Position numbers and translations under genes: made by a program
Assembly (NCBI RefSeq): GCF_002379365.1
Contig: NZ_JQIU01000008.1
Span: 411,936-444,993, forward strand
DNA length: 33,058 nucleotides
DNA from: Brachyspira sp. G79
GTDB taxonomy: Bacteria > Spirochaetota > Brachyspiria > Brachyspirales > Brachyspiraceae
Direction of reading: 5' to 3'
In this document: in pieces, positions 4,874 to 33,058 of the stretch
How positions within the stretch are numbered: position 1 is the stretch's first letter
Layout of the letters: each line of letters begins with the position of its first letter
Notes under the pieces: model-generated
What the model saw: only the letters and a program-made list of their open reading frames with translations
Database searches by the model: none
Told to the model about the DNA's origin: nothing

Positions 4874-4921
4874 ATGAAAAAAAATCAAAAAGAATGGCAG
4901 GAAGTTAGGCTAGGGGATATA
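4874..4921 (+). repeat. Inverted repeat N (hsdS 5' end), copy 1
   Basis: 48 bp starting at the hsdS ATG, matching 11774-11821 in opposite orientation with one mismatch. Inversion here would exchange complete hsdS genes between the two loci. Confidence 0.85.
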
Positions 4922-6124
4922 GTATATTTCAATCCTACAGAAAAACTGATAAAAGGTAACAATTATAAAAAAATATCTATGGATTGTTTGATACCAAAAA
5001 CAAGAAAAATAGAAAATTATGAAATTAATATATTTAATGGAGGATCAAAATTTAGAAATGGAGATACTTTAATGGCGAGAATTACTCCATGTTTAGAAAA
5101 TGGAAAAACTGCACAAGTATCTATATTAGAGGAAAATGAAATTGCTTTTGGTTCAACAGAATTTATAGTTTTAAGAGAAAAAGAAAATATTAGTGATAAT
5201 AATTTTATATATTATCTTTTTAATACAGATTATATAAGAAACATAGCAATAAAATCTATGACAGGTACATCAGGACGCCAAAGAGTTCAAGAAGATGTTT
5301 TAAAAAATCTTATTATAAAACTCCCGCCGCTGGAAGAACAAAAGAAAATCGCCTCCATACTCTCATCGCTTGACGACAAAATCGAACTCAATAACCGTAT
5401 GAATAAAATACTTGAAGATATGGCACAGACTATTTTTAAGGAATGGTTTGTCAATTTCAACTTTCCTAACGAAGAGGGCAAACCATATAAAGATAGCGGC
5501 GGCAAGATGATAGAAAGCGAGCTAGGGAATATACCAGAAGGCTGGAAAGTTGGTATTATCAAAGATATATCTAAAGAAGTTATATGCGGTAAAACTCCTC
5601 CAACTAAAGACGAAGAAAATTACGGTGATTATATGCCTTTTATAACAATACCAGATATGCATAATAATACTTTTATAATAAAAAGTGAAAGGTATTTATC
5701 GAATAAAGGAGTTAATACTCAAATAAACAAAACTGTACCTGAAAATAGTATTTGTGTTAGCTGTATAGCAACTGTTGGGCTTGTTTCTTTAACTTCTGAA
5801 AATTCACAAACTAATCAGCAGATTAATACAATAATACCAAAAAAAGATATAAGTTCTTATTGGGTTTATTTCTATATGAAAAATATATCTAATATTATTA
5901 TTAATTATGCATCTGGAGGAACTACAACTTTAAATTTGAATAAATCATTATTTGAGAAAATTAATATAATCATTCCTGAAATTTCTATTTTAGTTACATT
6001 TAATAACAATATAAAATCTATATTTGACATGATTAAATCTAATCAAATAGAAAACCAGAAACTTGCTTCTATTCGCGATACGCTATTGCCTAGGCTTATG
6101 AGCGGGGAGATTAGGGTCAAATAG
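4874..6124 (+). CDS. hsdS: Type I restriction-modification specificity subunit HsdS (copy 1)
   Basis: DNA-recognition subunit of a type I restriction-modification complex (416 residues): target-recognition domain 1 at about residues 17-147, central conserved helical region at about 148-226 (KLPPLEEQKKIASILSSLDD, then MAQTIFKEWFVNFNFPN), recognition domain 2 at about 227-390, and the distal conserved ending NQKLASIRDTLLPRLMSGEI. Each recognition domain reads one half of a bipartite site. The first 16 residues, the central region and the C-terminus match copy 2 at 10550-11821, whereas both recognition domains differ. A GAGG lies nine bases before the ATG. It follows yggS rather than hsdM, so it may be a storage copy or a weakly expressed alternative subunit. 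Confidence 0.95.
   Translation: MKKNQKEWQEVRLGDIVYFNPTEKLIKGNNYKKISMDCLIPKTRKIENYEINIFNGGSKFRNGDTLMARITPCLENGKTAQVSILEENEIAFGSTEFIVLREKENISDNNFIYYLFNTDYIRNIAIKSMTGTSGRQRVQEDVLKNLIIKLPPLEEQKKIASILSSLDDKIELNNRMNKILEDMAQTIFKEWFVNFNFPNEEGKPYKDSGGKMIESELGNIPEGWKVGIIKDISKEVICGKTPPTKDEENYGDYMPFITIPDMHNNTFIIKSERYLSNKGVNTQINKTVPENSICVSCIATVGLVSLTSENSQTNQQINTIIPKKDISSYWVYFYMKNISNIIINYASGGTTTLNLNKSLFEKINIIIPEISILVTFNNNIKSIFDMIKSNQIENQKLASIRDTLLPRLMSGEIRVK
5315..5550 (+). repeat. Inverted repeat M (hsdS central region), copy 1
   Basis: 236 bp covering codons of about residues 148-226. It aligns without gaps to the reverse complement of 11139-11374 with nine mismatches (about 96% identical). Inversion here would swap recognition domain 2 between the two hsdS genes. 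Confidence 0.92.
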
Positions 6125-6252
6125 TTTATTTATGAAGTTCTTTCACTCAGTGATACATACAGGCGTCATAAAGAAGTGGAGGCACGACTGTGTACTTCGG
6201 AGAGCTAGTCCACACAATTAATAAATAAAATTAGTTTTGAAACAATTATATT
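6050..6252 (+). repeat. Inverted repeat C (hsdS 3' end plus downstream), copy 1
   Basis: 203 bp running from the last 25 hsdS codons into non-coding DNA. It aligns without gaps to the reverse complement of 10422-10624. Only 6076 (a synonymous third-position C/G) and 6246 (T/G) differ. Conservation of the non-coding half argues for recent gene conversion or inversion rather than protein selection. Confidence 0.95.
6189..6216 (-). repeat. 28-nt TGTGTGGACTAGC element, copy in repeat C (1)
   Basis: On the minus strand: TGTGTGGACTAGC, four variable bases, CGAA, one variable base, TACACA. The ends TGTGT and ACACA are inverted. A diverged third copy stands at 15427-15454, outside the hsdS locus, so this is a dispersed sequence rather than part of hsdS. 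Confidence 0.6.
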
Positions 6253-6329
6253 CCTGCCTCAATGACAAAATGCTAAATTAAAATTAAATAATTTATTTGA
6301 CTTTATATAAAATAAATATACACTATATA

Positions 6330-6342
6330 CTATACAGTATAG
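6330..6342 (+). promoter_or_regulatory. CTATAC-A-GTATAG dyad overlapping the hsdR ribosome binding site
   Basis: A perfect six-base inverted repeat around one A, whose right arm runs into the AGGAG (6341-6345) preceding the hsdR ATG at 6354. It could be an operator or a small hairpin limiting hsdR translation. Upstream, TTGACT at 6297 has no -10 at proper spacing, so the hsdR promoter is not assigned. Confidence 0.35.
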
Positions 6343-6353
6343 GAGTCTTATTT

Positions 6354-9300
6354 ATGAAAAAGTATATGCACGAAAGTGATTTTGAAGTAACCGTTATTGA
6401 GATGATTCAAAACCTTGGGTATGAATATTATTATGGCGGGGACATCAGAGAAAATTTTCCCTCTATGAATAATACCAAAAATGTTGTTATTACTGAAGTA
6501 TTATATGACGCTCTTAAAAAAATTAACCCCAACGTTTCAGATAAGGCTATTAATGAGGCTATAAGAAAAATTACTAATCTTGAAGAAATTAATTATATAG
6601 ATAAAAACAAAACCTTTCAAAAATATCTCTCATTTGGAATAGAGGTTAATTATTTTGATAATGAAAATAAAGCAACATACATAAAATTAGCTGACTATGA
6701 CAATATAGAAAATAATTATTTTTATGTTGTTAATCAGCTTGTTATTATAAATATTGATAATAAAAGACCTGATGTAATAATATATTTAAATGGTATTCCT
6801 CTTGTTGTTATGGAGTTTAAAAATCCTGTTGAAGATTCTGAAACTATAGACGATGCATATTTGCAGTTAAAAAACTATATGGAGAATTGGATACCTAATC
6901 TTTTTTATTATAATGCTTTTTGTGTTATTACTGACGGCGTGAGGGCAGAAGTAGGCACTATTACCGCTGATAAAAGCAGATTTATTTCTTGGAAGAGAGA
7001 AAGCGAAGATATTGATATTATAGAGAAAAATGCTGATTTAAACAAACAGTATAAAACTTTAATTAATGGAATGCTTCAAAAAGAAAGATTTTTAAATATT
7101 CTTCATTATTTTGTTTTTTATGTGCAAAGTGGAAAAAAAGAAGGATTAAAAACATCTAAAATATTAGCAGCATATCATCAATACTTTGCTGTTAATAAAA
7201 TAATTAAAAATGTAAAAAAGGCATATTCAGATAAGACAACAAAAGCAGGTATTGTTTGGCATACCACAGGCTCTGGCAAATCTTTTACTATGCTTATGGC
7301 AGCAAAGGTTATATCTCAAGGTTTGTATAATCCTACAATAGTTATAATTACAGACAGAACAGAATTGGACGATCAATTATTTTCAACTTTTTCAAGTGCT
7401 ATAGATACATATTTAAAACAAACACCAAAGAAAATAGAGTCCAGAAAAGAACTTGTAAAAGAGTTAAAAGATATTAACGAAGGCGGTATAATATTTACAA
7501 CTCTTCAAAAGTTTGAGAGCTATGATAAGGCATTATCAAAAAGAAGTAATATTGTTTTAATTGTAGATGAGGCACACCGTTCGCATGACCTTGAAAAGTC
7601 TAAAATAGAAAAAGGACAAATAAAATATAATATGTCCAAATATATTAATGACGCTTTCCCCAATGCCATAAAAATAGGTTTTACAGGTACTCCTATAGAA
7701 AAAGAAGATAGAAATACAAGAGATGTTTTTGGGGATTATATTGATATTTTTGATATAACACAGTCAGTTGAAGATAATGTAACAGTGCCTATATATTATG
7801 AGGGTAGGGTAAACTATTTAAAACTTGATGAAACTAAATTAAAAAAAGCTGATGAAGAATACAGAATAATGCTTGAAAATAACGAGGCTTCAGAAGAGGC
7901 TATAGAAAAATCCAAAAAAGAACTCTCAAAAATGGATGCTGTACTAGGTTCTGATGCTGCAATAGATACTTTATGCAAAGATATAGTAGCACATTATGAA
8001 AAAAGAAAAAGTGTACTTATAGGAAAGGCATTTATAGTGGCATATTCGCGTCCTATAGGAATAGAAATATATAAAAAAATATTAGAGCTTAAACCAGAAT
8101 GGGAAGGCATGATAAAACCCGTAATGACTAGCACAAATAAAGACCCTGCAGATTGGGGTAAAATACTTGGAAGTAAATCATACAGAGAAAATTTGGCAGT
8201 TGAATTTAAAGATAAAACTTCAAACTTTAAAATAGCTGTGGTTGTAAGTATGTGGCTTACAGGTTTTGACGTTCCAGAGCTTGACACAATGTATATATAT
8301 AAGCCATTGGCAGATCATGATCTTATGCAGACAATATCGAGAATTAATAGGGTTTGCAAGGATAAAGATTCTGGGCTCATAGTTGATTATATAGGTATAG
8401 CTAATAATCTTAAAAAGTCTATGAAAGCATATACAAAAAGAGATAAAGAAAATTATGGTAATATGGATATAGCAAATACTGCATTACCAAAGTTTAAGGA
8501 TATTATTGCCCATATTAGAAATATTTTTAAAAATACTGATTATTCCAACTTTTACACTTGTTCAAGTACAGAAAGGTTAGAGCTTATAACTAAATTAGCC
8601 GATTATGTGTTTTCATTTGAAGAAAACGAAAAAAATGATTTTTTAGATAAGGCATCTGCATTAAAAAAAGCGGAAGCATTATGCAGAAGTATTATTTCAA
8701 GAGAAGAATCTGCAGAAACAGCATTGTATGAAGCGGTTAAAGTAATAATAACTAAAATGCAAAGTCATCAGAAATTATCATTAAGAGAGATTAATCAGAG
8801 AATAAATAAAATACTTGAAGGAAGTATACAAAGCGAAGGTATTATGAATATATTTGACGGCGAGAAGGATTCTAAAGATATATCTTTATTTGATAAAAAA
8901 TATTTAGCGTCTATTGCCAATATGAAGTATAAGAATATAGCATTAGAGGTATTAAATAAATTATTGAATGATAAAATAAAAGCATATTTAAAAGTAAACA
9001 TAATACAGTCCAATATGTTTTCAGATAGAATGAAAAAAATAATGGAAAAATATAATAATAAGGCCATAGATAATATAGAGGTAATAGATGAGCTTTTAAA
9101 TCTTGCTAATGACTTGGACAACCTAGAAAAAGAAGCAAAAATTTTGGGACTTACAAATGAAGAGAAAGCTATATATGATGCTATATGCAGTCCTATGAAT
9201 AATGGTTATAATAAAGAAGAAATAAAGAACATGGCTAAGGAATTGGCATTAATAGTGCAAAAGAACTCTGAAGATATAGATTGGCAGTATAAGGAATCTA

Positions 9301-9431
9301 CAAAGGCAAAAATGAAAATGGATATAAAAAGATTTTTGAAGCTGCATAAATATCCCAAAGAAAAAGAAAATGAGGCATTGGATAATATATTAAAACAGGC
9401 AGAGAATTACGCATCATTAAAGTACAGCTAA
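6354..9431 (+). CDS. hsdR: Type I restriction enzyme endonuclease/translocase subunit HsdR
   Basis: Motor and nuclease subunit (1,025 residues) that translocates DNA at unmethylated sites with HsdM and HsdS and then cuts it. The nuclease motif is PDVIIYL followed by VVMEFKNP (Asp at about 140, Glu-x-Lys at about 154-156). Helicase motifs are Walker A HTTGSGKS at about 303-310, DEAH at about 405-408, FTGTP, and the QTISRINRV motif VI. Length is normal and no break is seen. The start is ATG at 6354, eight bases after AGGAG; an in-frame TTG at 6297 lacks a binding site. The gene lies between the two inverted hsdS copies, opposite in orientation to hsdM, so its orientation would flip with inversion. 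Confidence 0.96.
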   Translation: MKKYMHESDFEVTVIEMIQNLGYEYYYGGDIRENFPSMNNTKNVVITEVLYDALKKINPNVSDKAINEAIRKITNLEEINYIDKNKTFQKYLSFGIEVNYFDNENKATYIKLADYDNIENNYFYVVNQLVIINIDNKRPDVIIYLNGIPLVVMEFKNPVEDSETIDDAYLQLKNYMENWIPNLFYYNAFCVITDGVRAEVGTITADKSRFISWKRESEDIDIIEKNADLNKQYKTLINGMLQKERFLNILHYFVFYVQSGKKEGLKTSKILAAYHQYFAVNKIIKNVKKAYSDKTTKAGIVWHTTGSGKSFTMLMAAKVISQGLYNPTIVIITDRTELDDQLFSTFSSAIDTYLKQTPKKIESRKELVKELKDINEGGIIFTTLQKFESYDKALSKRSNIVLIVDEAHRSHDLEKSKIEKGQIKYNMSKYINDAFPNAIKIGFTGTPIEKEDRNTRDVFGDYIDIFDITQSVEDNVTVPIYYEGRVNYLKLDETKLKKADEEYRIMLENNEASEEAIEKSKKELSKMDAVLGSDAAIDTLCKDIVAHYEKRKSVLIGKAFIVAYSRPIGIEIYKKILELKPEWEGMIKPVMTSTNKDPADWGKILGSKSYRENLAVEFKDKTSNFKIAVVVSMWLTGFDVPELDTMYIYKPLADHDLMQTISRINRVCKDKDSGLIVDYIGIANNLKKSMKAYTKRDKENYGNMDIANTALPKFKDIIAHIRNIFKNTDYSNFYTCSSTERLELITKLADYVFSFEENEKNDFLDKASALKKAEALCRSIISREESAETALYEAVKVIITKMQSHQKLSLREINQRINKILEGSIQSEGIMNIFDGEKDSKDISLFDKKYLASIANMKYKNIALEVLNKLLNDKIKAYLKVNIIQSNMFSDRMKKIMEKYNNKAIDNIEVIDELLNLANDLDNLEKEAKILGLTNEEKAIYDAICSPMNNGYNKEEIKNMAKELALIVQKNSEDIDWQYKESTKAKMKMDIKRFLKLHKYPKEKENEALDNILKQAENYASLKYS

Positions 9432-9526
9432 TTGGGTATTGCGGATATATAGCAGCTTATTAAAATTACAGGTATTCAATAAATAAAACCAAAAAATAAT
9501 AAATTTATATTCCGATAATGTATATT

Positions 9527-9542
9527 ATGTTAACTTAAGCAT
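9527..9542. promoter_or_regulatory. Imperfect ATGTTAA/TTAAGCAT palindrome
   Basis: ATGTTAAC followed by TTAAGCAT, a near match of the palindrome at 3937 with one inserted G. It lies just past the stop of the small minus-strand gene and about 95 bases past hsdR. No U-run follows, so it is not an obvious terminator. Confidence 0.25.
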
Positions 9543-9543
9543 G

Positions 9544-9648
9544 TTATTTTTTTATAGACTTTATTATGATATTGATAATAAACCCGATAATAAAGAATAT
9601 AACTATCATCATGCCAATAGATACTAAAGGGTTTCCCTGATTTTCCAT
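9544..9648 (-). CDS. 34-residue single-span membrane peptide
   Basis: A short open frame from ATG at 9648 to TAA at 9544. The peptide starts MENQGNPLVS, has an uninterrupted hydrophobic stretch of about 19 residues (IGMMIVIFFIIGFIINIII) and ends KSIKK. Two signals support it as a real gene: AAGGA seven bases before the ATG, and a good promoter (TTGACT, 18 bases, TATAAG at 9710-9681). The small polar N-terminus and lysine tail predict one membrane helix with the C-terminus in the cytoplasm. Function unknown: a small membrane-protein partner or a type I toxin-like peptide are both possible. It lies in the segment between the inverted hsdS copies. Confidence 0.65.
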   Translation of the reverse strand: MENQGNPLVSIGMMIVIFFIIGFIINIIIKSIKK

Positions 9649-9680
9649 TTTTTAATCCTTAAAGTTATTAAGTTCTTATA

Positions 9681-9710
9681 CTTATAATAAATAAAAAATT
9701 AAAAAGTCAA
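9681..9710 (-). promoter_or_regulatory. Promoter of the 34-residue peptide gene
   Basis: TTGACT (9710-9705), 18-base spacer, TATAAG (9686-9681) on the minus strand, 33 bases upstream of the ATG at 9648. It diverges from the lipoprotein promoter at 9746. Confidence 0.68.
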
Positions 9711-9745
9711 TACCTAATATTTATACAAGCAATTTTCATTAACAA

Positions 9746-9774
9746 TTGAACTTTTTTATATATTATAGTATAAT
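9746..9774 (+). promoter_or_regulatory. Promoter of the small lipoprotein gene
   Basis: TTGAAC (9746-9751), exactly 17 bases, then a perfect TATAAT (9769-9774), 41 bases upstream of the ATG at 9816. Confidence 0.72.
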
Positions 9775-9815
9775 CTGTCATTAATAAATAAAAATAAAAT
9801 TACGGATATGCACTA

Positions 9816-10343
9816 ATGAAAAAAATAACACTTTTTTTAATATTAAGTTTAATAATTATATCATGCAAAAATGACGGCGGATCTATATACGCTATGGAGA
9901 AAAGATATAAAAATTTTTTGAATATACTTCCAACTGATATAAGGAATGACTATACTTTAGAATCTGATAAATACGGTAATATGTATAAAGAATGGATTAA
10001 TGAGTTTAACACTTGGACAGATAATATACTAAATACGGAAGTGCAAAGAGAAAAAGAAATATCATCAAGAATAACACCAGACAAGATAGAATACGCACTT
10101 GAAACTTTAACAAGCAAAGACTATGAGAGAAACTTGCCTGTAGATCTTATGTCTAAAGTAAAGGCACATACAGATGAATTATCATTAAAAATAGAAGAAT
10201 TAGAAAAAGATGAGTCTTTCTCTAATAGTATGATAAAACTAAAAAAAGATGAAGCTGTAGAAAACTTTACAACAAAAGACACTATATTTTACTATGTATG
10301 GAACTATTTAATAACAATAGAAAGACCAAGACGTTTTCAGTGA
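9816..10343 (+). CDS. Small lipoprotein of unknown function
   Basis: A 175-residue protein with a classical lipoprotein signal: two lysines, a hydrophobic stretch and the lipobox IISC with Cys17 as the predicted lipidated residue. The mature part is charged and mostly helical, with no recognised domain. It has its own promoter and lies between hsdR and the decayed hsdS scrap, inside the segment bounded by the inverted hsdS copies, so it is probably a passenger rather than a part of the restriction system. The ATG at 9816 follows a GGA about nine bases upstream. Confidence 0.78.
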   Translation: MKKITLFLILSLIIISCKNDGGSIYAMEKRYKNFLNILPTDIRNDYTLESDKYGNMYKEWINEFNTWTDNILNTEVQREKEISSRITPDKIEYALETLTSKDYERNLPVDLMSKVKAHTDELSLKIEELEKDESFSNSMIKLKKDEAVENFTTKDTIFYYVWNYLITIERPRRFQ

Positions 10344-10421: not shown

Positions 10422-10624
10422 AATATACTTGTTTCAAAACTAATTTTATTTATTAATTGTGTGGACTAGCTCTCCGAAGTACACAGTCGTGCCTCCACTT
10501 CTTTATGACGCCTGTATGTATCACTGAGTGAAAGAACTTCATAAATAAACTATTTGACCCTAATCTCCCCGCTCATAAGCCTAGGCAATAGCGTATCCCG
10601 AATAGAAGCAAGTTTCTGGTTTTC
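10422..10624 (-). repeat. Inverted repeat C, copy 2
   Basis: Reverse-complement partner of 6050-6252, differing at two positions in 203. It holds the last hsdS codons and about 128 bases of conserved non-coding DNA. Confidence 0.95.
10458..10485 (+). repeat. 28-nt TGTGTGGACTAGC element, copy in repeat C (2)
   Basis: Identical to the element at 6189-6216 in opposite orientation, and 23 of 28 positions identical to 15427-15454. Confidence 0.6.
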
Positions 10625-11821
10625 ATAAAAATTGTTATTTACTTTTTCTATTATAGAATTAAATATTTTAGTTGATAGTTTTAGAATTACTTTTTCTGGA
10701 ACTATAATATTATATTTTTTTAAATCCATCATTCTTATTCCTCTCTGTACACTTCCGCTAGACATATTTAAAGCATATTCTTGCATTCTATTATCTAATA
10801 AATTTAAATATAAATATTCTGGTGTTATGATATCATTAGCTCTCATGGTAAATATAGATTCGCTTATATTCCAATTTTTTACATCTTTATTTATCAAATG
10901 TACTCTTCCGATAGTACCTATACCTGAAAATAATAAATCATTTTTTCTTAAATCCGAACGCTTATTAATTTTTTTTATTGCTTCATCATTAATTTTATCA
11001 CATCTATTGTCTAAATATATTTGATTATTATTCATATTTTTTATTGTTACATAATAGTTATTTCCTTCACCTAATTTGAAATTTTTTCTAGGATTTAAAC
11101 CTGTTGTAAATTTTATTAATAAATTATCTAAAGCCATGACTTTCCATCCATCTGGTATATACCCTAGCTCGCTTTCTATCATCTTGCCGCCGCTATCTTT
11201 ATAGGGTTTGCCCTCTTCATTTGGAAAGTTGAAATTGACAAACCATTCCTTAAAAATAGTCTGTGCCATTTCTTCGAGTATTTTATTCATACGGTTATTG
11301 AGTTCGATTTTCTCGTCAAGCGATGAGAGTATGGAGGCGATTTTCTTTTGTTCTTCCAGCGGCGGGAGTTTTATTTTTATATTGTATAAATCACTTGGTT
11401 TTATAGAAGGATATGTTGATACACTTTGTTCTGCTATCATTTGTAAATAGTTTGTTATATCATCTTGTATTATATTATAATATATAAAATATTTATCTGC
11501 TATATCTTCTTTTACTTTAATAGTAATAAATCCTGTAGATACTATCATATTATCAACATAATTTTTTATAATACCATAATGTTTTTGAATGGGTCTGACA
11601 GTTGAATAGATAATATCACCAATATCTACTTTTCTTTTTGCTCTACTTGGTATATTATGTATAGGAATTTTTTGGATATTATCTATTATTCCTTTAGTAA
11701 TGTTTCCAGTATCTAAATAATTTATATAAGTGTAATTATCAGATTTTTGTAAAATATTAGAATTAATATCTGATATATCCCCTAGCCTAACTTCCTGCCA
11801 TTCCTTTTGATTTTTTTTCAT
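10550..11821 (-). CDS. hsdS: Type I restriction-modification specificity subunit HsdS (copy 2)
   Basis: 423-residue specificity subunit with the same layout as copy 1: shared N-terminal MKKNQKEWQEVRLGD, recognition domain 1 at about 17-160, shared central region (LPPLEEQKKIASILSSLDEK, KEWFVNFNFPNEEGKPY), recognition domain 2 at about 240-395, shared ending LASIRDTLLPRLMSGEI. Both recognition domains differ from those of copy 1, so it should read a different bipartite DNA sequence. It is the last gene of the minus-strand hsdM-hepT-mntA-hsdS series, 90 bases after mntA, so it is the copy most likely to be expressed with HsdM. AGGAG stands upstream of the ATG at 11821. Confidence 0.95.
   Translation of the reverse strand: MKKNQKEWQEVRLGDISDINSNILQKSDNYTYINYLDTGNITKGIIDNIQKIPIHNIPSRAKRKVDIGDIIYSTVRPIQKHYGIIKNYVDNMIVSTGFITIKVKEDIADKYFIYYNIIQDDITNYLQMIAEQSVSTYPSIKPSDLYNIKIKLPPLEEQKKIASILSSLDEKIELNNRMNKILEEMAQTIFKEWFVNFNFPNEEGKPYKDSGGKMIESELGYIPDGWKVMALDNLLIKFTTGLNPRKNFKLGEGNNYYVTIKNMNNNQIYLDNRCDKINDEAIKKINKRSDLRKNDLLFSGIGTIGRVHLINKDVKNWNISESIFTMRANDIITPEYLYLNLLDNRMQEYALNMSSGSVQRGIRMMDLKKYNIIVPEKVILKLSTKIFNSIIEKVNNNFYENQKLASIRDTLLPRLMSGEIRVK
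11139..11374 (-). repeat. Inverted repeat M, copy 2
   Basis: Reverse-complement partner of 5315-5550; 236 bp without gaps, nine mismatches. Confidence 0.92.
11774..11821 (-). repeat. Inverted repeat N, copy 2
   Basis: Reverse-complement partner of 4874-4921; 48 bp, one mismatch, ending at the hsdS start codon. Confidence 0.85.
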
Positions 11822-11911: not shown

Positions 11912-12208
11912 TTAATTAAGCCTATTATAAATTATTTTACCATATTTTTCTATATTGTTTTTTAACTCTTCATTGTTTATATCATTATGGCTTATTACAT
12001 CAAATTTTAAAAGAGTTTCTAATTCTGAAAGCTCTTCCTTCAAACGCTCGCAAAAAAGAAAATCAAAATCACCTATTACAGATAAATCTATATCCGAATT
12101 ATATTTTTCTCTGTTTTCTGCCCTAGACCCAAACAGTATTATTTTTTCTATTTCTTTATGAGATTTAAAAATATTGTTCATATCATAAAGAAGTTTTTCA
12201 TCTATCAT
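11912..12208 (-). CDS. mntA: MntA-type minimal nucleotidyltransferase antitoxin
   Basis: A 98-residue minimal nucleotidyltransferase. The catalytic signature GSX10DXD is complete: Gly27-Ser28, then Asp39 and Asp41, within ILFGSRAENREKYNSDIDL. In characterised HepT-MntA pairs this protein neutralises the HEPN toxin by adding AMP groups to a tyrosine next to the toxin's active site. It follows the HEPN gene by 14 bases on the same strand and lies between hsdM and hsdS. The product is named from motifs and gene pairing. Confidence 0.88.
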   Translation of the reverse strand: MIDEKLLYDMNNIFKSHKEIEKIILFGSRAENREKYNSDIDLSVIGDFDFLFCERLKEELSELETLLKFDVISHNDINNEELKNNIEKYGKIIYNRLN

Positions 12209-12222
12209 ATATAAAACCGCTC

Positions 12223-12642
12223 TTATAATTTATTTACAAAAAAGTTATGCAAATCTTCTAAAACATTTAAATAATCATTTTCTATTTTTATTATGACTTC
12301 TTTAAATCTTGCAAAATCATAAGTATGAGAAAGCAAATTCCTGCTTATCATCATATCTATAAAAATACTAGGTTCTTTTATTATACCCGCAGAGTATGCC
12401 TCTTTAAACACATTTCTTGCTGTAATATCTATGTTATTTAAATTTCCGCTATATTCTAAATAATCTTTTAATGTTTTCCATGCCAGTTCATAGGTATATT
12501 CAAATCTTTGTATAACGCCTTCCTGCTCCAATATTGATAATTCTTCAATTTTTCTTTCTTTAAATACACTATTTAATAATTTATAAGCCTTACTAAAATT
12601 ATTAAACCTTTGTTTCCAGCGTATATTTTCATTTAATTCCAT
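12223..12642 (-). CDS. hepT: HepT-type HEPN toxin (HI0074 family)
   Basis: A 139-residue all-helical protein of the HI0074 nucleotidyltransferase-partner family, here assigned as HepT. The HEPN ribonuclease motif RX4HXY is intact: Arg101, His106, Tyr108 in SRNLLSHTYD. Tyr108 corresponds to the residue AMPylated by MntA in studied systems. The family segment FEYTYELAWKTLKDYLE is also present. Its ATG (12642) overlaps the last 14 bases of hsdM, and an AGAGG lies nine bases upstream inside hsdM, so it is translationally coupled to the methyltransferase gene. The coupling suggests a link between restriction and toxin control, but this is inference. Confidence 0.88.
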   Translation of the reverse strand: MELNENIRWKQRFNNFSKAYKLLNSVFKERKIEELSILEQEGVIQRFEYTYELAWKTLKDYLEYSGNLNNIDITARNVFKEAYSAGIIKEPSIFIDMMISRNLLSHTYDFARFKEVIIKIENDYLNVLEDLHNFFVNKL

Positions 12643-14125
12643 ACCCTATTTCCTCTAAATTATCCTTTATACTCTTTTCTAGCTTTCTGCTTTCTCTGAA
12701 ACATTCTTCAAGCTCTTCTGTTAGTGTTTTCATTTTAGAATTAAAATCTTCTTCTTCGTTATTTTCTTCTTCAAGTCCTACATAGCGTCCAGTTGTGAGT
12801 ATATAATCTTCTTTGGCTATTTCATCTATACTTACACTTTTGCAGTATCCTTTTATATCTTTATATCCATTGCCTTTCTGCCAATTATGAACAGTTTTTG
12901 CTATTGCTTCTATATCTTCATCATCTAATACCCTTTGAACTCTGCTTTCCATTCTTCCATAATTTCTTGCATCTATAAAAAGCACATTTCCTTTCTGTTT
13001 TTTATCCTTATTCAAAAACCATAATGAAACAGGTATCTGAGTCGATATAAATAATTGAGTTGGAAGAGATATTATACATTCTATTAAATCATCTTTTATC
13101 ATATTCTCTCTTATCCCCCCCTCTCCCGATGTTTGAGTAGAAAGAGATCCGTTTGCAAGTACAACCCCAGCTTTCCCTTTTTTTGATAATTTGGATGCAA
13201 TATGAGAAAGCCAAGCATAGTTTGCATTTCCAGCTGGAGGAATACCCCATTTCCATCGATAATCATCTTTTAGAGCATCACCTCCCCAATCTGACATATT
13301 AAAAGGAGGATTAGCCAATATATAATCAGCTTTCAAATCACTATGTAAATCTTCAAAAAAAGTATCAGCATTTTTATCTCCCAAATTACCATCTATACCA
13401 TGTATTGCTACATTCATATTGCAAAGTTTCCAAGTTGTGGGATTACTTTCTTGTCCGTATACTGATATACTATTTACACTTTCAGAATGTGCCTCTAAAA
13501 ATTTTGCACTTTGTACAAACATTCCACCGCTTCCGCAGCAAGGGTCATATACTCTGCCCTTATAAGGTTCTAATATTTCTACTAAAAGTTTAACTATTGG
13601 TGATGGCGTATAAAACTCTCCGCCTCTCTTTCCTTCGGCAGTTGCAAATTGAGATAAAAAATATTCATACACATTTCCCAATATATCTTTTTTATTTTTA
13701 TTCACTATTTTTATATTAGAAAATAAATCTATTATCTCCCCTAGCCTTCTCTTATCAAGTTCTGGTCTGCTATAGTTTTTAGGAAGTATATCTTTCAATT
13801 TTTTATTACTTTCTTCTATTTCCAGCATGGCATTATCTATAATAGAGCCTATTTCATCAGAACGTGCTTTTGAGGCTATATACTTAAATCTTGATTTCTC
13901 AGGCAAATAAAATATATTTTTTTCACTATATGCTTCAGCCTCATCTTGCAAATCAAATCCTTCTTTTACAAGCTCATTATATCTTATTTCAAATTTATCA
14001 GAAATATATTTTAAAAATACAAGCCCAAGTATTACATGTTTATATTCAGAAGCATCAATATTTCCTCTTAATTTATCAGAAGCTGCCCATAATTCCTTTT
14101 TTATATCATTGTCATTTGAACTCAT
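12629..14125 (-). CDS. hsdM: Type I restriction-modification DNA methyltransferase HsdM
   Basis: Adenine-N6 methyltransferase subunit (498 residues) that protects host DNA and forms the core complex with HsdS. The N-terminal helical domain covers about residues 8-140. The S-adenosylmethionine motif DPCCGSGGMF is at about 193-202 and the catalytic NPPF at about 271-274. The start is ATG at 14125, giving MSSNDND, with AGGGAG ten bases upstream. An in-frame upstream TTG at 14194 is the -35 box of the gene's own promoter and cannot be the start. It is the first gene of the hsdM-hepT-mntA-hsdS series and diverges from the LacI-type gene. Confidence 0.96.
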   Translation of the reverse strand: MSSNDNDIKKELWAASDKLRGNIDASEYKHVILGLVFLKYISDKFEIRYNELVKEGFDLQDEAEAYSEKNIFYLPEKSRFKYIASKARSDEIGSIIDNAMLEIEESNKKLKDILPKNYSRPELDKRRLGEIIDLFSNIKIVNKNKKDILGNVYEYFLSQFATAEGKRGGEFYTPSPIVKLLVEILEPYKGRVYDPCCGSGGMFVQSAKFLEAHSESVNSISVYGQESNPTTWKLCNMNVAIHGIDGNLGDKNADTFFEDLHSDLKADYILANPPFNMSDWGGDALKDDYRWKWGIPPAGNANYAWLSHIASKLSKKGKAGVVLANGSLSTQTSGEGGIRENMIKDDLIECIISLPTQLFISTQIPVSLWFLNKDKKQKGNVLFIDARNYGRMESRVQRVLDDEDIEAIAKTVHNWQKGNGYKDIKGYCKSVSIDEIAKEDYILTTGRYVGLEEENNEEEDFNSKMKTLTEELEECFRESRKLEKSIKDNLEEIGYGIK

Positions 14126-14165
14126 TTTATTTAAACTCCCTATTATAGATTGATGAATAGTAATA

Positions 14166-14194
14166 AATATACTTAAAAAATAGAATTTTGTCAA
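14166..14194 (-). promoter_or_regulatory. Promoter of the hsdM operon
   Basis: Perfect TTGACA (14194-14189), 17 bases, TATATT (14171-14166) on the minus strand, 41 bases before the hsdM ATG. Confidence 0.78.
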
Positions 14195-25248: not shown

Positions 25249-25272
25249 ATACTATACTTGCGGAGTTTTTAC

Positions 25273-28200
25273 ATGAACCCTGTTCTTCAATTAATACTAA
25301 CTTTTGTTGTACCTCTATTACTTATCGGTATTTATAGCGTAATCAATAGGAAAAAAAATTATAATGATAATAATTTTAATGATATGTTTGCCGAAGAGAA
25401 AGCTGTTTTGGAAGGTATTGTAGAAGAGAAAATTTCTGAGGTTAGAGATAATGCTATAGATTTGGAAATAGCAGTTAAAAAAGCTGGTTTTATAAGCAAA
25501 TCTATGGAAGAAGATCTAGCTAAACTAAATAAAAGGATAGAATCATATAAAGACTATAAAGCCGCAGTTTCGCAGTATCAGGAACAAGTTGATTCTCTTG
25601 AAGAGGCTTATTTAGAAATACTTAATAAAGTAGATACTGTACTAAAAGAGCGTAATACTATAGAAAAAACTTATAAAAGAATATCTGATGTTAAGGCTAA
25701 AATGTCAGAATTAGAGAAAAATGTAGGATCTATACAGGATAAATTAATAGAATCTTATAATTCTAAATTAAATGAGTTTGAGAGTGAACTTTATAAGAGG
25801 TTTGATGCCCTTACAACTAATTTATTAGCTAGAGATGCTCATTACAGTACTATGGCAGAACAGGAAAAAGAAAAAATATCTGCTCTTACAGAAGAATTCA
25901 AACTTCATGTTGCCAAAAAAGAAGAATTATTTACAAATCAGCTTACTCAGCTTGCTGAAAGAACAGCTCGTCATAATATAGAACAGCTTGCAGAACTATT
26001 TGAGAAAGGAAGAGATGAGCTTATAAACAAATATTCATCATTTGCTGATGAAATTGATGTTAAATCTAAGGATATAGAAAACCGTTATGAAACTTTAAGC
26101 CAGTCTAAAGACGGACTTGAAACAGAATTAAATAATTTAAGAGATACTATACATGACAGATTAAACTCTATAACAGAATCAAGTGTGTTAGAGTTCCAAG
26201 ATGAAATGGAAAAAACTAAAGAAATGCTCTACTCTACCCTAAAAGAGGGTCTTGAAAAAATAAGTATGGACAGAGAAGAGTTTTTGGATTCTATAGAGCA
26301 AAAAGCTCATTCTTTGGAAAAATCTATAGATGATATAAAAGATAAAGCTGATTATATAAGCAAAGATTATGCTGAGAAAGCTCATCAGTTGGAAAGTGAG
26401 TTTTCAGTATTAAAAGACGATATAAATAACAGATTTATAGCAGAAGTTGAGAATTTCTCTAATCATATAAAAAATGTTCTTGAAAATGAAGATGACGGTG
26501 TTATAACTCTTTACAGAAACAAAACTAAAGAACTTAATGATTTAATCATATCTATAGATGGTATGAGCGAAGAAACTATGCTCAGAGCTGAAAGCAGATT
26601 TGAAGATATTGTTAATGACATAGATAAATTAAAAGATGATATCTTAACAAGAGCTCAAGATGATATGGAATATTCTATAGATAATGCTAGAAGTTCTTTA
26701 ATAGCTGAAATTAATGAGCTTAGAAATGATGTTGAGACAGAAACTAACCTTTTAAAAGATAAAATAGATGAAACACATTATCAAACTTCTGAAATAATAT
26801 CTATACTTAATAATAAACAGGAAGAAATACTTGATTCTTTAAGCCTTCAAAAAGAGTACTTGTATAAAGATTTAGAAACTCAGGCTAATGATAGAGTAAA
26901 TGAAATAGAAAAGTTGTTTGCAACTGTTAAAAATGAGTTAGAAGAAAATATCAATACATACATAAAAAATACATCTTCTGATTTAACTGCCATTGATGAA
27001 AAATTGTCAGGTTTAAAAGAGCAGTATGATAAAGCCTCTTCTGATATAGATACTTTAAGCAGAGAAACAGAATCTAATATAAAAGACAATATAGAAAAAC
27101 GTTTGGAAATATTAGAAAAAACTTCAGTAGAAATTAACGGATTGGTAAACAGAGCCAATGAAAAACTTGATGTTGGTATGAAAGATGCTGAAGACAGGAT
27201 AGATGGCATTAAAAAAGAAATATCCGATTACAGCGATGCATATATAGATAGTTTGAAATCTCATTTAAAAAATGTTTTAGATGATTATGAACAAACTAAA
27301 ATGAAGGCTATAACTGATAGTATAGACTCCGTTATAAGTCAGGTTGATGAAAGTGAAAAAAGACATGATGCATTAATGAGTAGCATAGAAAATTCTTTAA
27401 ATGATTTTAGAAATAAAGTAGATGCTGCTGTAGATGAAAATATAAAATTCAATGAAGAAACTAAAAAAGAAGTAGCTGATATGCTTCATGATGAACTTCG
27501 TCAGGCTACAGATTCATTTGATACTCTTTTAAATGAAAAAAGAGAAAGTATGAATAAAATAAAAGATGAAATTGAAGACATCTTGCATAGAGTTGAAAAT
27601 GGAAGAGATGTATTTGAACGTACAATAAATAAAGTATATGAAAATGCTGAAGATAAAGAAAAAGAATTAATGTCTGATATAGAAGATAAATATAATTCTT
27701 TGGATAAAAAAATTGACGGTGTATTAGATGAAAGAAGAGCAGATTTGAATGCTATAAGTGCAGAATATCATGCTATGCTTGAGAAGTATTCTAATAATCT
27801 AAAAGATGATTATGAAGAATTAAAACATCATGCTTCTTTAATGACAGATGAATATAAAATGCGTATAGAAAATCTAGGTGAAAGAATCAATGAAATAATT
27901 GATAATGCTAATAATATGCAGTCTGTTGTTGATGCCAAAACAGGTGAAATGGATTCTTATATAGCAGATAAAAAAGATGAAATAGCTAAAAGAACAGAGA
28001 CTATATTCGGAAATATAGAATACGATACTTCTAAAAAATTAGATGAGCTTAAATCATTAATAGATAATGCTATAGCTAAATACCAAGATGAAATAAAAGA
28101 AATAGAAACTTATAGACTTGAAGAAAATAAAAGTATTATAGAAGATGTAGAAAATATAGGTGCTGGTATAAGAAAAGATTATGAGCAGTATACTAATATG

Positions 28201-31200
28201 CTTGAAGAGCTTTATAATAAAGAAAAAACTTCTTTAAATGAACATGTTAATACTTTGAAAGATGAGATAGAAAAAGCAAGAGAAGAATCTGAAGCTAAAC
28301 ATCTTACTAATGAAGCTAATTATATAGACGATTATTTGAATAAAGCCTCTTCAAAAATAGATGAAGAGGTTAATCGCCTAAATGAAGAGCTTAATGATTC
28401 ATTCAATACATTATACAGTGGTTTTTCTAAAATATTAGCTAAGATAAGAAAATCTAATCATAAAAAAGCATTGCAGTCTATTGCTAAAATTAAAAAACAT
28501 GCTGAAAAAGTTATATCTAATACAGCAGCAGAAGTTAGAGACAGTCTTGGTCTAACATTAGAAGATTTGAGAAATGAGTTTATATCATTAAAAGATAATG
28601 TTGATGATAAATTAAGAGAACAGGCAGATAAATTAATATCTAATAATGAAAATGTGCTTGCTATATTAGATGATCATGAAAGCAGACTAGAGAAAATAAA
28701 TGATATCTCTAATATCATAGAAAATATAAAAGAAACTTTATCTGAACAGATAGATGAATTGAAATCTAATATTTCAGACAGTAATGAAGATGTTAATAAC
28801 AGAATGGAAGAAATTAAATCTTCTTTAATAGACAGGGAAGAATTAATAAACTTACATGACAGTGAAAGAGAACTTCTTAAAAATCAGATAGAAGATATAA
28901 AAGAAGAATTTGAACTATTTAAAGATAATATAGTAAGAACTAATGAAGTAGAGATACCAGCCCTATTTGATGAAGAAAAAGAAAGAATAGAGAGAATGTT
29001 TGATGAGTTTAGTAAGAACCTTCTTATGAGGATTACTGATAACGAAAGTGATATACATTATATAAAAGATGTATTATCTGAAGAGAGAAGTCATTTAATA
29101 TCTCAGATAGAACTTTTAAGAAGAGATGTTGATGATATAAAAGATGATAATACTGTAACTGTTTTATCAGAAGAAAAAGCTGTTCTTGAAAACTCTTTAA
29201 CTGCTTTAAGAGATGATTTTGATAAAATAATTGATTTGGAAAAAGATTTTGTTTCTCTTAAAAACAGAATGGAAGGTATTGACAGCGGATTAAAAGATGA
29301 TGTTAAAGATTTATCTGATAAATTAAAAAGTTTTAGAGATAACTTAGAAGAAAAGATAGAAAAAGATTCAAATGGTCTTTATAAAGACATAGAAAATCTT
29401 AATAAAAATTTTGAGACAGTTAGAAACAATATGTCCGATTTATTGGATAGAGATGAAGTTGAGTCATTAATTAATAATGAAAAAGAAAGATTAAACTCTA
29501 TATTTGAAAGTTTAGTTTCTAATAATGAAGATTTTAAAGACAGATTAGAAAAACGCATATCTTATTTTGAAGATGTATGGTCTGATAATACTAGAATAAA
29601 AAGTATATATGCTTCAGATATAAGAGAGGAAGTTGAAAATATAAGAAAAGAAGCTGATATTAAATATGATAATCATATAGCTCAATTAAAAGAAAAAATG
29701 AAATCAATTGAAGAGGATATATATGATTGGAAAAATGGTAATTTGAATACTTTGCTTGCTCAGTTAGAAGATGCAAGAAAAGGAATAGAAAGCTTTATAG
29801 ATACTTCTGAAGGTAAGAAAAATCAATTCTTAATCGATATGCTAAGCAGTATAGAAAATAAAGAAAGTGAAATATATTCCCGCATAGATGAGAAGATATT
29901 GAATGCTGAAAATAAACTTTCTGATATAGATGAAAAATTAAATAATGCTATAGGCAATAGTCTTGAAAGTATTCATAATAGAATAAATGAATCTGTTGCA
30001 AAATATGATGAAGAGATAAAAAGAATAGAACATCATAGAGCAAATGAAGCTGAAGATTTAATATCTGATATGGAGGATTTGGGTAACAGTATACGCGAAG
30101 ATTATGAAGAATATTCTATAATGATAGATAAAATTTATGAAGATGCTGTGGCAGAATTAGAAACTCATCTTGATAATATTAAAAAAGAAATAGAAAGAGC
30201 AAGAGCTGAATCTGAAGAGAAACATTTGTCTAATGAAAAAAATTATATAGATGATTATTTATTAGATTATTCTGAAAAAATAGAAGCTCATGTTAATGAT
30301 AAATTGAGTATATTAACTGAAAGTAAAGCTCAATTAGATGATATGATAAAAGATTCATTCAGCACTCTTAATGCTAATTTGAATGATACTATATCTAAAT
30401 TTAATGAAGAAGCAAACACTCAAATATACTCTGTTGTTGAAAGATTAGAGAGAGAAGCAGCAGCAAGATTGTTTAGCGAGCAGAAATATATGTCTGACTT
30501 GGAAGAACAATTAAGAGCTATAAGTGCAAAAATAGATAATGAACTTTATCATATCTCTTCTAAATTAGACAGTGAAATATCAGATGTGAAAACAAAATAT
30601 AAAGATTTGAGTACTGACTTTGACGAAGCATTAGATATGATAAAAAGCTCTATTCTTGATAGAGATGAGCTTATGGAACTTCAGTCATCAGAAAAAGAAC
30701 TTTTATCTGAACAAATGGAAACTTTGAGAACAGATTTTGATACTTTCAAAGATGAATTGTTAAAAGCTAATGAAGAGGATATCCCTACCCTATTTAATGA
30801 AGAGAAACAAAAGATAGAAAAAGCATTTGAAGATTTTACTACTGCTATACTTGATAGAATGGTAGATTCTGAAAATGATATTAATAATGTAAAAGATGCT
30901 ATATCAGAAAATAAATCTTCTTTCTTAGAAAAAGTTGAAAATATTAAAAGAGATATAGAAGCAATAAAAGAAGATAATACTATAGCCCAGCTTGCTTTAG
31001 ATAAACAGTCTTTAGAAGATTCTTTTAATGCTATAAAAAATGATTTCTCTAAATTAAATGATTTAGAAAATAATTTTTATCATTTAAGCGACAGACTTGA
31101 AGATTTCCAATTGAAAGTTGCAGCGGATAATGATAATTTATTTGAAAATATAGACAGTATCAAAAGTAGTATAAAAGATTCTATAGACAAATCTTCTGAA

Positions 31201-33058
31201 CTTGATGATAAATTTACTTCAATAAAAGATAATGTATTTACTGTATTAGGTAAAAATGAAAATATAGAAAATATGTTTGCTGATGAAGTAAAAAAATTAG
31301 ATGAATTATTTAATAACTTCAAAACTGATAATGCTGAGTTTAGAAGCAGATTAGAAAAACGTATTGATTATTTTGAGGATATATGGTCTGACAGCAGCAG
31401 AATAAGAAGTTTGTATGCAGCTGATTTAAGAGATGAATTAGACAGCATAAAAGCAGAAACTGAAGTTAAATTAGAAAATTATCTTAATGATCTAAATGAC
31501 AGAATAGAAGCTATTAATAATGATGCATCTTCTTGGAGAGATGAATATGTTAGTGATTTCAAAGAAAAAATTGACTCTCTTGATAAAGATATATCAAGCT
31601 GGAAAGATGTACGCATTAATGAGCTTTTAGAACAGTTGGAAAAAGCTAAAGAAAATATTAATAGTTATTTAGAATCTTCTGAAGGTAAAAAAGAAGAGTT
31701 ATTATCTGATATACTGTTAAAAATAGAAGAGAAAGAAAACTCTATCTACGGAAAAATAGATAGCAAGATAGAAGAGATAGAAAATAGATTGTCTGTAGTA
31801 GACAGCAAAGTATCAGATGATATAGCCAGAGGTTTGGAAGAAGTACAGTCTATAGTAAATAATGCTGTAAACAAATATGATGAAGAGATAAAAAATATAG
31901 AACATCATAGATCTGAAGAAAGTTCTAAATTATTAGAAGATATACAATCAGGTTATGATTATTATTCTAAGCTTATAAATAATACTTATAAAGATTCCTT
32001 GTCTTCTTTATCAGAGTACACTAATAGAATTAAAGCAGAAATAGAAAAAGCTAGAAAAGAAACAGAGACTAAACATCTTAATAATGAAAAAAATTATATA
32101 GATGAGTATTTAAAAGAATATTCATTGAAGTTGGATAATCAAGTTAATGAAAAAATAAATGTTTTAAATGATACTAAAAGTCAATTAGATGATATGATAA
32201 AAGAATCATTTAATACTCTTAATAATAACTTGAATGAAGCTGTAATTAAGTTTAATGAAGAAGCTGACATGAAAATTAATGCTACTCTTGAAAGATTAGA
32301 AAGAGATGCTTCAGAAAAATTATTAGACTATAATAATTATGTTGCTGAGTTAGAAGACAGTTTAAGAGTTCTTAATTCTAAAATAGATAATGAGATATAT
32401 AATGTATCATCAAAACTTGATAGTGAAATATCTGATATGAAAAATAGATATAAAGAGCTTAGTATAGATTTTGAAGAATCATTGGATATGATAAAAAGTT
32501 CTATACTCGACAGAGATGAACTTATGGATTTGCATACATCTGAAAAAGAACTTTTATCAAGTAAAATAGATGAGATTAAAAATGATTTCAATATTTTGAA
32601 AGAAGAAGCAATCAGTGCAGGAAAAGAAGATATACCTGCTCTATTTGATGAAGAAAAACAAAAAATAGAAAATGCTTTTGAACAGTTTACTAATGCTTTA
32701 TTGTACAGAGTAAATAATTCTGAAAATGATATTAATCATCTTAAAGATGCATTATCAAATGATAAACTTTCATTATTAGAAAAAATAGATAATTTAAAGT
32801 CTGAAATAAGAACTTTAAAAGAAGAGGATAAAGTAAATAGATTGGCATTAGAAAAACAGGCATTAGAAGAGTCTTTTAATACTATAAAAAATGATTTCTC
32901 TAAATTAGAAGATTTAGAAAATCATTTGCATGAATTAAAAAATAACATGTATATTTCAGATGTTAATTTGAAAGATGAAGTTGCTAATTTATCTAGTAAA
33001 TTTGCAGATATTGAAAACAAAATAAATGAAAATAATGACTATATAGAAAGAAATATAA
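25273..33058 (+). CDS. Giant membrane-anchored coiled-coil protein (partial, runs off the window)
   Basis: An open frame of 2,595 complete codons with no stop, cut by the window edge. The ATG at 25273 follows GGAG by about nine bases. Residues 4-22 form one membrane helix (VLQLILTFVVPLLLIGIYSV) followed by RKK, which predicts a short outside N-terminus and the whole remaining protein in the cytoplasm. The rest is almost entirely Glu/Lys/Asp/Ile/Leu-rich helix with heptad-like spacing, as in a very long coiled coil. From about 28081 on it is built of repeated units of about 600-640 residues. It may belong to the family sometimes annotated as SpiroCoCo spirochaete coiled-coil proteins, but this was not tested. 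A structural role in cell shape, filament anchoring or envelope spacing is a guess. Confidence 0.9.
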   Translation, partial: MNPVLQLILTFVVPLLLIGIYSVINRKKNYNDNNFNDMFAEEKAVLEGIVEEKISEVRDNAIDLEIAVKKAGFISKSMEEDLAKLNKRIESYKDYKAAVSQYQEQVDSLEEAYLEILNKVDTVLKERNTIEKTYKRISDVKAKMSELEKNVGSIQDKLIESYNSKLNEFESELYKRFDALTTNLLARDAHYSTMAEQEKEKISALTEEFKLHVAKKEELFTNQLTQLAERTARHNIEQLAELFEKGRDELINKYSSFADEIDVKSKDIENRYETLSQSKDGLETELNNLRDTIHDRLNSITESSVLEFQDEMEKTKEMLYSTLKEGLEKISMDREEFLDSIEQKAHSLEKSIDDIKDKADYISKDYAEKAHQLESEFSVLKDDINNRFIAEVENFSNHIKNVLENEDDGVITLYRNKTKELNDLIISIDGMSEETMLRAESRFEDIVNDIDKLKDDILTRAQDDMEYSIDNARSSLIAEINELRNDVETETNLLKDKIDETHYQTSEIISILNNKQEEILDSLSLQKEYLYKDLETQANDRVNEIEKLFATVKNELEENINTYIKNTSSDLTAIDEKLSGLKEQYDKASSDIDTLSRETESNIKDNIEKRLEILEKTSVEINGLVNRANEKLDVGMKDAEDRIDGIKKEISDYSDAYIDSLKSHLKNVLDDYEQTKMKAITDSIDSVISQVDESEKRHDALMSSIENSLNDFRNKVDAAVDENIKFNEETKKEVADMLHDELRQATDSFDTLLNEKRESMNKIKDEIEDILHRVENGRDVFERTINKVYENAEDKEKELMSDIEDKYNSLDKKIDGVLDERRADLNAISAEYHAMLEKYSNNLKDDYEELKHHASLMTDEYKMRIENLGERINEIIDNANNMQSVVDAKTGEMDSYIADKKDEIAKRTETIFGNIEYDTSKKLDELKSLIDNAIAKYQDEIKEIETYRLEENKSIIEDVENIGAGIRKDYEQYTNMLEELYNKEKTSLNEHVNTLKDEIEKAREESEAKHLTNEANYIDDYLNKASSKIDEEVNRLNEELNDSFNTLYSGFSKILAKIRKSNHKKALQSIAKIKKHAEKVISNTAAEVRDSLGLTLEDLRNEFISLKDNVDDKLREQADKLISNNENVLAILDDHESRLEKINDISNIIENIKETLSEQIDELKSNISDSNEDVNNRMEEIKSSLIDREELINLHDSERELLKNQIEDIKEEFELFKDNIVRTNEVEIPALFDEEKERIERMFDEFSKNLLMRITDNESDIHYIKDVLSEERSHLISQIELLRRDVDDIKDDNTVTVLSEEKAVLENSLTALRDDFDKIIDLEKDFVSLKNRMEGIDSGLKDDVKDLSDKLKSFRDNLEEKIEKDSNGLYKDIENLNKNFETVRNNMSDLLDRDEVESLINNEKERLNSIFESLVSNNEDFKDRLEKRISYFEDVWSDNTRIKSIYASDIREEVENIRKEADIKYDNHIAQLKEKMKSIEEDIYDWKNGNLNTLLAQLEDARKGIESFIDTSEGKKNQFLIDMLSSIENKESEIYSRIDEKILNAENKLSDIDEKLNNAIGNSLESIHNRINESVAKYDEEIKRIEHHRANEAEDLISDMEDLGNSIREDYEEYSIMIDKIYEDAVAELETHLDNIKKEIERARAESEEKHLSNEKNYIDDYLLDYSEKIEAHVNDKLSILTESKAQLDDMIKDSFSTLNANLNDTISKFNEEANTQIYSVVERLEREAAARLFSEQKYMSDLEEQLRAISAKIDNELYHISSKLDSEISDVKTKYKDLSTDFDEALDMIKSSILDRDELMELQSSEKELLSEQMETLRTDFDTFKDELLKANEEDIPTLFNEEKQKIEKAFEDFTTAILDRMVDSENDINNVKDAISENKSSFLEKVENIKRDIEAIKEDNTIAQLALDKQSLEDSFNAIKNDFSKLNDLENNFYHLSDRLEDFQLKVAADNDNLFENIDSIKSSIKDSIDKSSELDDKFTSIKDNVFTVLGKNENIENMFADEVKKLDELFNNFKTDNAEFRSRLEKRIDYFEDIWSDSSRIRSLYAADLRDELDSIKAETEVKLENYLNDLNDRIEAINNDASSWRDEYVSDFKEKIDSLDKDISSWKDVRINELLEQLEKAKENINSYLESSEGKKEELLSDILLKIEEKENSIYGKIDSKIEEIENRLSVVDSKVSDDIARGLEEVQSIVNNAVNKYDEEIKNIEHHRSEESSKLLEDIQSGYDYYSKLINNTYKDSLSSLSEYTNRIKAEIEKARKETETKHLNNEKNYIDEYLKEYSLKLDNQVNEKINVLNDTKSQLDDMIKESFNTLNNNLNEAVIKFNEEADMKINATLERLERDASEKLLDYNNYVAELEDSLRVLNSKIDNEIYNVSSKLDSEISDMKNRYKELSIDFEESLDMIKSSILDRDELMDLHTSEKELLSSKIDEIKNDFNILKEEAISAGKEDIPALFDEEKQKIENAFEQFTNALLYRVNNSENDINHLKDALSNDKLSLLEKIDNLKSEIRTLKEEDKVNRLALEKQALEESFNTIKNDFSKLEDLENHLHELKNNMYISDVNLKDEVANLSSKFADIENKINENNDYIERNI
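28081..33058 (+). repeat. Tandem coding superrepeat of about 1.8-1.93 kb
   Basis: Units begin near 28081, 30007 and 31879 (the last incomplete). Each carries the same landmarks in the same order: E-I-K-x-I-E then KHLxNExNYIDxYL; a DRxELMxLxxSEKELL segment (near 28840, 30660, 32511) leading to IPALFDEEKxxIE; RLEKRIxYFEDxWSD (29544 and 31348, 1,804 bases apart); and TSEGKK followed by IYxxID. The units are diverged but clearly related. Units 2 and 3 are closest to each other. Confidence 0.75.

Follow-up and report, generated by a model that had tools for sequence, protein, structure and literature searches.

A short open frame resembling the membrane anchor of YajC lies beside a dif-like site in Brachyspira

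Introduction

Does a 34-codon open frame in the spacer between hsdR and a lipoprotein-like gene of Brachyspira sp. G79 encode a peptide, and where could such a peptide have come from? The first-pass annotation of the window (the whole stretch of 33,058 nucleotides analysed here) had proposed a small membrane-peptide gene with its own promoter and a lysine-rich end, lying between inverted copies of hsdS, and had named type I toxins and regulators of membrane proteins as possible roles. Two main facts were missed there, namely the resemblance of the peptide to YajC and the presence of a dif-like site 8 bp downstream. From sequence comparisons, we put at about even the chance that the frame is a genuine small gene, one that can be dispensed with and that encodes the membrane-anchor helix of YajC standing alone. 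Comparisons within the genus used 26 Brachyspira genomes (21 good ones), among which G000 is Brachyspira sp. G79, G008 is B. innocens, G006 B. hampsonii, G002 B. alvinipulli and G003 B. catarrhinii.

Results

The frame and its surroundings

The minus-strand frame at 9544-9648 has the 34-residue product MENQGNPLVSIGMMIVIFFIIGFIINIIIKSIKK, whose best 19-residue stretch reaches a hydropathy of 3.01, and AAGGA precedes its ATG with a 7-nt spacer, which confirms the membrane-peptide frame as first described. Its placement between inverted hsdS copies was equally borne out, the arms of these copies being 99% alike over 203 nt and 94% alike over 255 nt (Table 1). Divergent from the peptide frame stands a lipoprotein-like gene found in 22 of the 26 Brachyspira genomes and in 20 of the 21 good ones. 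Between the second hsdS and hsdM lies a nucleotidyltransferase/NTase_sub_bind pair, which we take to be toxin-antitoxin-like.

Table 1. Features around the peptide frame (window positions; strand left empty where none is given)
Feature	Position	Strand	Basis
hsdS	4874-6124		profile/frames
Left arm of 203-nt inverted repeat, spanning the hsdS 3' end	6050-6252	+	repeat comparison
hsdR	6297-9431		profile/frames
dif-like site, TATTCCGATAA-TGTATA-TTATGTTAACT (arm on the XerC side, centre, arm on the XerD side, named as in E. coli dif)	9508-9535	+	28 bp
Conserved T-tract by the XerD-side arm; encodes Lys-Lys-stop of the peptide on the minus strand	9544-9556	+	sequence
Mini-YajC: putative stand-alone YajC-type transmembrane peptide, 34 codons	9544-9648	-	frame, likeness to YajC
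Shine-Dalgarno AAGGA, 7-nt spacer to ATG	9656-9660	-	sequence; rarity on short frames
Promoter-like TTGACT-18-TATAAG	9681-9710	-	sequence; not above chance
Divergent lipoprotein-gene promoter, TTGAAC-17-TATAAT	9746-9774	+	recognisable by eye in closer relatives
Lipoprotein-like gene, divergent from the peptide	9816-10343	+	lipoprotein signal by eye
Right arm of 203-nt inverted repeat, spanning the second hsdS 3' end	10422-10624	-	repeat comparison
Second hsdS	10550-11821	-	likeness to first hsdS
Nucleotidyltransferase and partner	11912-12642	-	nucleotidyltransferase and NTase_sub_bind matches
hsdM	12629-14194	-	profile/frames

Likeness to YajC

The peptide aligned locally to the YajC of its own genome with a score of 72, the maximum among 2000 shuffles being 41. 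Its residues 4-25 are 64% identical to that protein, and the shared core, (G)xPLVSIGMMxxIFxIxxF, is the transmembrane entry, with GNPLVSIGMM-type residues common to both, so that the peptide carries a transmembrane segment of the YajC kind. Across 12 core codons compared with seven YajC genes, 9-11 residues agree and of these only 5-7 use the same codon; this divergence at kept residues favours an old duplicate under protein-level conservation over a recent DNA copy, on a count of only 12 codons.

YajC is known as an accessory subunit of SecDF (PF02699), and the peptide differs from it in that it has 34 residues, lacks both the RPQ motif and the cytoplasmic domain (the frame ends after IIIKSIKK, where the genome's own YajC goes on LLIRPQKQQQKK), and does not stand beside secD, its neighbours being hsdR, the dif-like site and the lipoprotein gene. 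The PF02699 profile found no match to it at E <= 0.5 (curated cut-off 28.2 bits), and gave 3e-20 for the YajC frame of G018. By profile and by architecture the peptide is thus not a YajC family member, and its sequence is that of a truncated variant. The genome itself holds one YajC over the cut-off, at G000:C8:1940840, followed by a frame that is SecD-like by eye.

Searching the phylum (296 genomes, E <= 0.01) gave matches in 27 genomes, 26 of them Brachyspira. These comprised the peptide with its copies in G008, G002 and G010, and YajC-like frames of 124-163 codons (PF02699, applied to the G000 and G018 frames, matched both, and the others were judged by eye); the remainder were two frames, one of 72 codons in G003 and one of 305 codons in G174, the latter a weak match. 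A 67-residue protein of G003 joins a signal-like start to the same truncated YajC segment, and it is encoded on the minus strand between frames that look by eye like DNA methyltransferases. Nothing usable for the peptide came from the Pfam, NCBIfam, PHROGs and PADLOC profiles, no solved structure matched it at E <= 10, no entry of the phage and plasmid collections matched it in protein mode at E <= 1, and among the papers listed by a literature search on small proteins of Brachyspira none named the genus. A weak match in the own genome (C9:54246, 41%) was dropped as unrelated by eye.

Conservation, loss and selection

Conservation in related genomes with a synonymous bias had been proposed as a check on the peptide, and the outcome was divided; the result named beforehand as refuting it, a frame that close relatives do not conserve, holds in part. 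Among the 22 lipoprotein-bearing genomes, the 34-codon frame is kept in two (G000 and G008), and G002 has a frame of 31 codons. It is broken in four: by a 28-nt deletion in the close sister G010, two small deletions in G005, an ATG-TAA in G018 and a larger loss in G006. G004 has it mostly deleted, and in 14 no recognisable trace was seen by eye. The synonymous bias did appear between G000 and G002, which over 30 codons differ by 8 synonymous and 10 non-synonymous changes (dN/dS 0.22; binomial p 0.015; Fisher p 0.007 on rounded site counts) and have 10 of the 18 differences in third positions (p 0.043), a test of 18 differences between two copies only. G000 and G008 differ by just 1 synonymous and 1 non-synonymous change, too few to tell.

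We placed these states on a tree of 21 of 22 genomes (G012 is missing), for which the lipoprotein part was lacking in G011, G014, G016 and G017 and the yajC part in G001 and G003. Because good support is limited to 6 of its 18 inner branches and the bootstrap did not settle, we drew on it for two groups only, G000/G008/G010 and G004/G005/G006, and the labels of broken, deleted and no-trace rows were assigned by eye. Intact and broken copies share one group (G000, G008, G010), so loss was recent at least once, and breaks fall in at least three separated places of this weakly resolved tree.

The pattern invites the reading that the frame is a relic: part of yajC would have been duplicated, and the copy, which once coded for protein, would now drift, open in two close species by recency only and held in place between the dif-like site and the lipoprotein promoter. 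That 5 of the 8 traceable genomes have it broken or mostly deleted, in those separated places of the tree, speaks for such drift, as does the better conservation of both flanks; the synonymous bias of G000/G008 against G002 and the Shine-Dalgarno sequence kept in G000 and G008 speak against it. We regard this relic as a serious possibility, though one that we would not bet on. The preferred reading, a dispensable YajC-type helix whose gene is possibly decaying now, draws on the likeness to YajC with its diverged codons, the synonymous bias, the truncated segment in the G003 protein and the strong Shine-Dalgarno sequence described below; against it count these losses, the small number of differences behind the selection test, the lack of a PF02699 match, and the altered Shine-Dalgarno sequence and absent promoter hexamers of G002.

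Translation and transcription signals

We compared the frame with short frames from 40 stretches of 20 kb of its own genome (800 kb), taking those with ATG and 28-60 codons that lie wholly outside stop-to-stop frames of at least 100 codons (n = 142). A strong Shine-Dalgarno sequence (AAGGA, AGGAG or GGAGG, 4-16 nt upstream) precedes 6 of these 142, the peptide frame included, and since so few comparable frames have one, the ribosome site exceeds chance and is a meaningful signal; two of the other five frames resemble, by eye, ferredoxin and ribosomal protein L34. This Shine-Dalgarno sequence is kept in G008, G010 and G018 and altered in G002 and G005.

The promoter fared less well. The hexamers claimed for it are present on the minus strand (TTGACT at 9710-9705, 18 nt, TATAAG at 9686-9681), but they do not exceed chance. 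Simulating a 440-nt stretch 500 times under a Markov model gave a mean of 0.6 sites per strand that match in 10 or more of 12 positions, and 45% of the simulations held at least one, against two observed on each strand; a dedicated scan of 9400-9900, which requires a final T and so leaves TTGACT/TATAAG off its list, found 5 promoter-like sites with 6.0 expected. Both hexamers are absent in B. alvinipulli, and the -35 hexamer is absent in G010.

Could the frame then be open merely by chance in an AT-rich spacer, its hydrophobicity a product of T-rich codons on the minus strand? A strongly hydrophobic stretch occurs in 29 of the 142 short intergenic frames, which together with the chance-level promoter fits such an origin, but a likeness to YajC far above same-composition shuffles, the strong Shine-Dalgarno sequence and the traceability of the frame in B. 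alvinipulli make it improbable.

Least probable is a type I toxin, a hydrophobic peptide silenced by antisense RNA: the size (34 residues, LdrA having 35 according to PMC12643268), the single hydrophobic helix, the lysine end and the report that overexpressed YajC counteracts LdrA (PMC12643268, 2025) would suit it, but the suggestion found no support, with no Rfam match at gathering score (9380-9850 gave only a human lncRNA family, E 0.37, below the cut-off and taken as chance), nothing unusual in the fold of the peptide mRNA (z -0.65), promoter-like sites at chance, a full copy present just once per genome, nothing terminator-like nearby and a peptide that resembles a housekeeping Sec subunit. 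The LdrA paper ties YajC to small membrane peptides and says nothing about the Brachyspira peptide.

A dif-like site past the stop codon

In the spacer that separates hsdR from the lipoprotein gene, conservation is better than in the peptide frame at two places, the lipoprotein promoter and a block past the stop codon that holds TATTCCGATAATGTATATTATGTTAACT (9508-9535), 8 bp beyond the stop. This sequence shares 22 of 28 positions with E. coli dif and 22 of 28 with B. subtilis dif (reference sequences from PMC3025954), an identity that is weak by itself, the sampled 800 kb containing one other 22/28 match to E. coli dif. With as many as 2 mismatches allowed, it occurs in 23 of the 26 Brachyspira genomes and in all 21 good ones, with a reversed-pattern control at 0 of 26. 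The 23 matches are exact; a reversed control at 3 mismatches also hits 16 of 26 (hand count), and within this AT-rich genus only exact matches therefore count. In 22 of the 23 genomes the site is single, G001 having one exact and two 2-mismatch sites, and in G011, G012, G014, G016 and G019 it is retained away from the lipoprotein gene. Sister genera carry the arms as well, around other centres: when 3 or fewer mismatches are allowed, 53 of the 172 genomes from outside Brachyspira match (reversed control 12 of 172).

The likeness to dif lies in the 28 bp with two 11-bp arms and a 6-bp centre, and in genes that the genome carries. Scanning 4 of the own genome's 7 tyrosine-recombinase frames gave one XerD over the NCBIfam cut-off and an XerC-like gene for which XerC is the best match, below the cut-off (286 of 335 bits), and FtsK gamma is present (2.2e-29). 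GC skew, as a sign of the replication terminus, was examined in three genomes. In G010, where we split the circle by hand near 2.1 Mb, the stretches are positive in 8 of 10 cases before and negative in 9 of 10 after, the sign changing close to the dif-like site, but the last 20 kb before the split are already negative. The pattern is less clear in G009, where 9 of 11 are positive before and only 4 of 9 negative after, and in the own genome, where 9 of 13 are positive before and, of the 22 that follow as far as 2.0 Mb, 12 are negative. We propose that 9508-9535 is dif-like, a candidate chromosome-resolution site of Brachyspira that is known here from its sequence; it is a neighbour of the peptide and distinct from it. 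A term look-up found no 'dif' in the main text of the Brachyspira genome papers checked and no 'Brachyspira' in the main text of a large dif survey (PMC3025954), and a literature search combining dif, Brachyspira and XerC gave a sole match that, by its title, concerns a Proteus plasmid.

The block of dif-like site and lipoprotein gene lies, relative to its flanking genes, in one orientation in G000 and G002 and in the opposite one in G005, G008 and G010. The idea that inversion between the hsdS copies would harm dif by reversing it was dropped by argument, as GC skew about the terminus is the same from either strand. For B. pilosicoli, rearrangements with symmetry about the origin or terminus have been reported (PMC3532143). 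A plus-strand frame of at least 2600 codons (25258-33057) runs off the window, and in G008, where this frame exceeds 3100 codons, the DNA matching it begins no more than about 300 bp from the dif-like site. In G001, imperfect dif-like sites form pairs in opposite orientation at G001:C1:137679-137886 and 696210-696423 (184 and 192 bp from start to start), one of them amid genes that by eye resemble sugar-biosynthesis genes; these pairs are reminiscent of Xer-targeted mobile modules.

The dif-like site also bears on the lysine-rich end of the peptide. At 20 of the 23 sites (all but G001, G012 and G016), six or more consecutive T are found no further than 25 nt from the XerD-side arm, and T-runs on the other side occur at 0 of 23. 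The Lys-Lys-stop noted at first is indeed present, but because the T-tract that encodes it also flanks the dif-like site in genomes without an intact peptide, which make up most of those 20, this end belongs to the flank of the site and is not specific to the peptide. A conserved site adjoining a short frame can in this way mimic conservation of the frame's end.

Discussion

For the reading that we place at about even, a genuine but dispensable copy of the YajC anchor helix, the course of events could be as follows. The copy would be old, its codons having drifted with the helix-entry motif unchanged, and its gene sits with the dif-like site on one side and the divergent lipoprotein promoter on the other. 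The peptide would be translated and inserted as a single helix of the inner membrane, where it may dock at the place taken by the helix of YajC, on SecDF or on an RND-type pump; we infer this docking because, according to a review, the sites at which YajC and AcrZ bind AcrB are similar (PMC10710835). Acting there, the peptide would be a weak modulator or competitor whose loss does no harm. The peptide could in this respect be likened to single-helix transporter modulators of the AcrZ type, as a tiny and presumably single-helix inner-membrane protein.

A bolder version, which we hold to be rather unlikely, is that YajC and the free anchor helix compete for SecDF or an RND pump, the helix being a natural dominant modulator derived from the Sec machinery, and that, with the Lys-Lys-stop shared with the XerD-side flank, gene and dif-like site evolve as one block.

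If the frame is translated, Brachyspira would possess a protein reduced to the helix of YajC, and with it a test of whether the helix alone acts on SecDF or on efflux pumps. The dif-like assignment, for its part, gives the genus a concrete candidate for its site of chromosome resolution.
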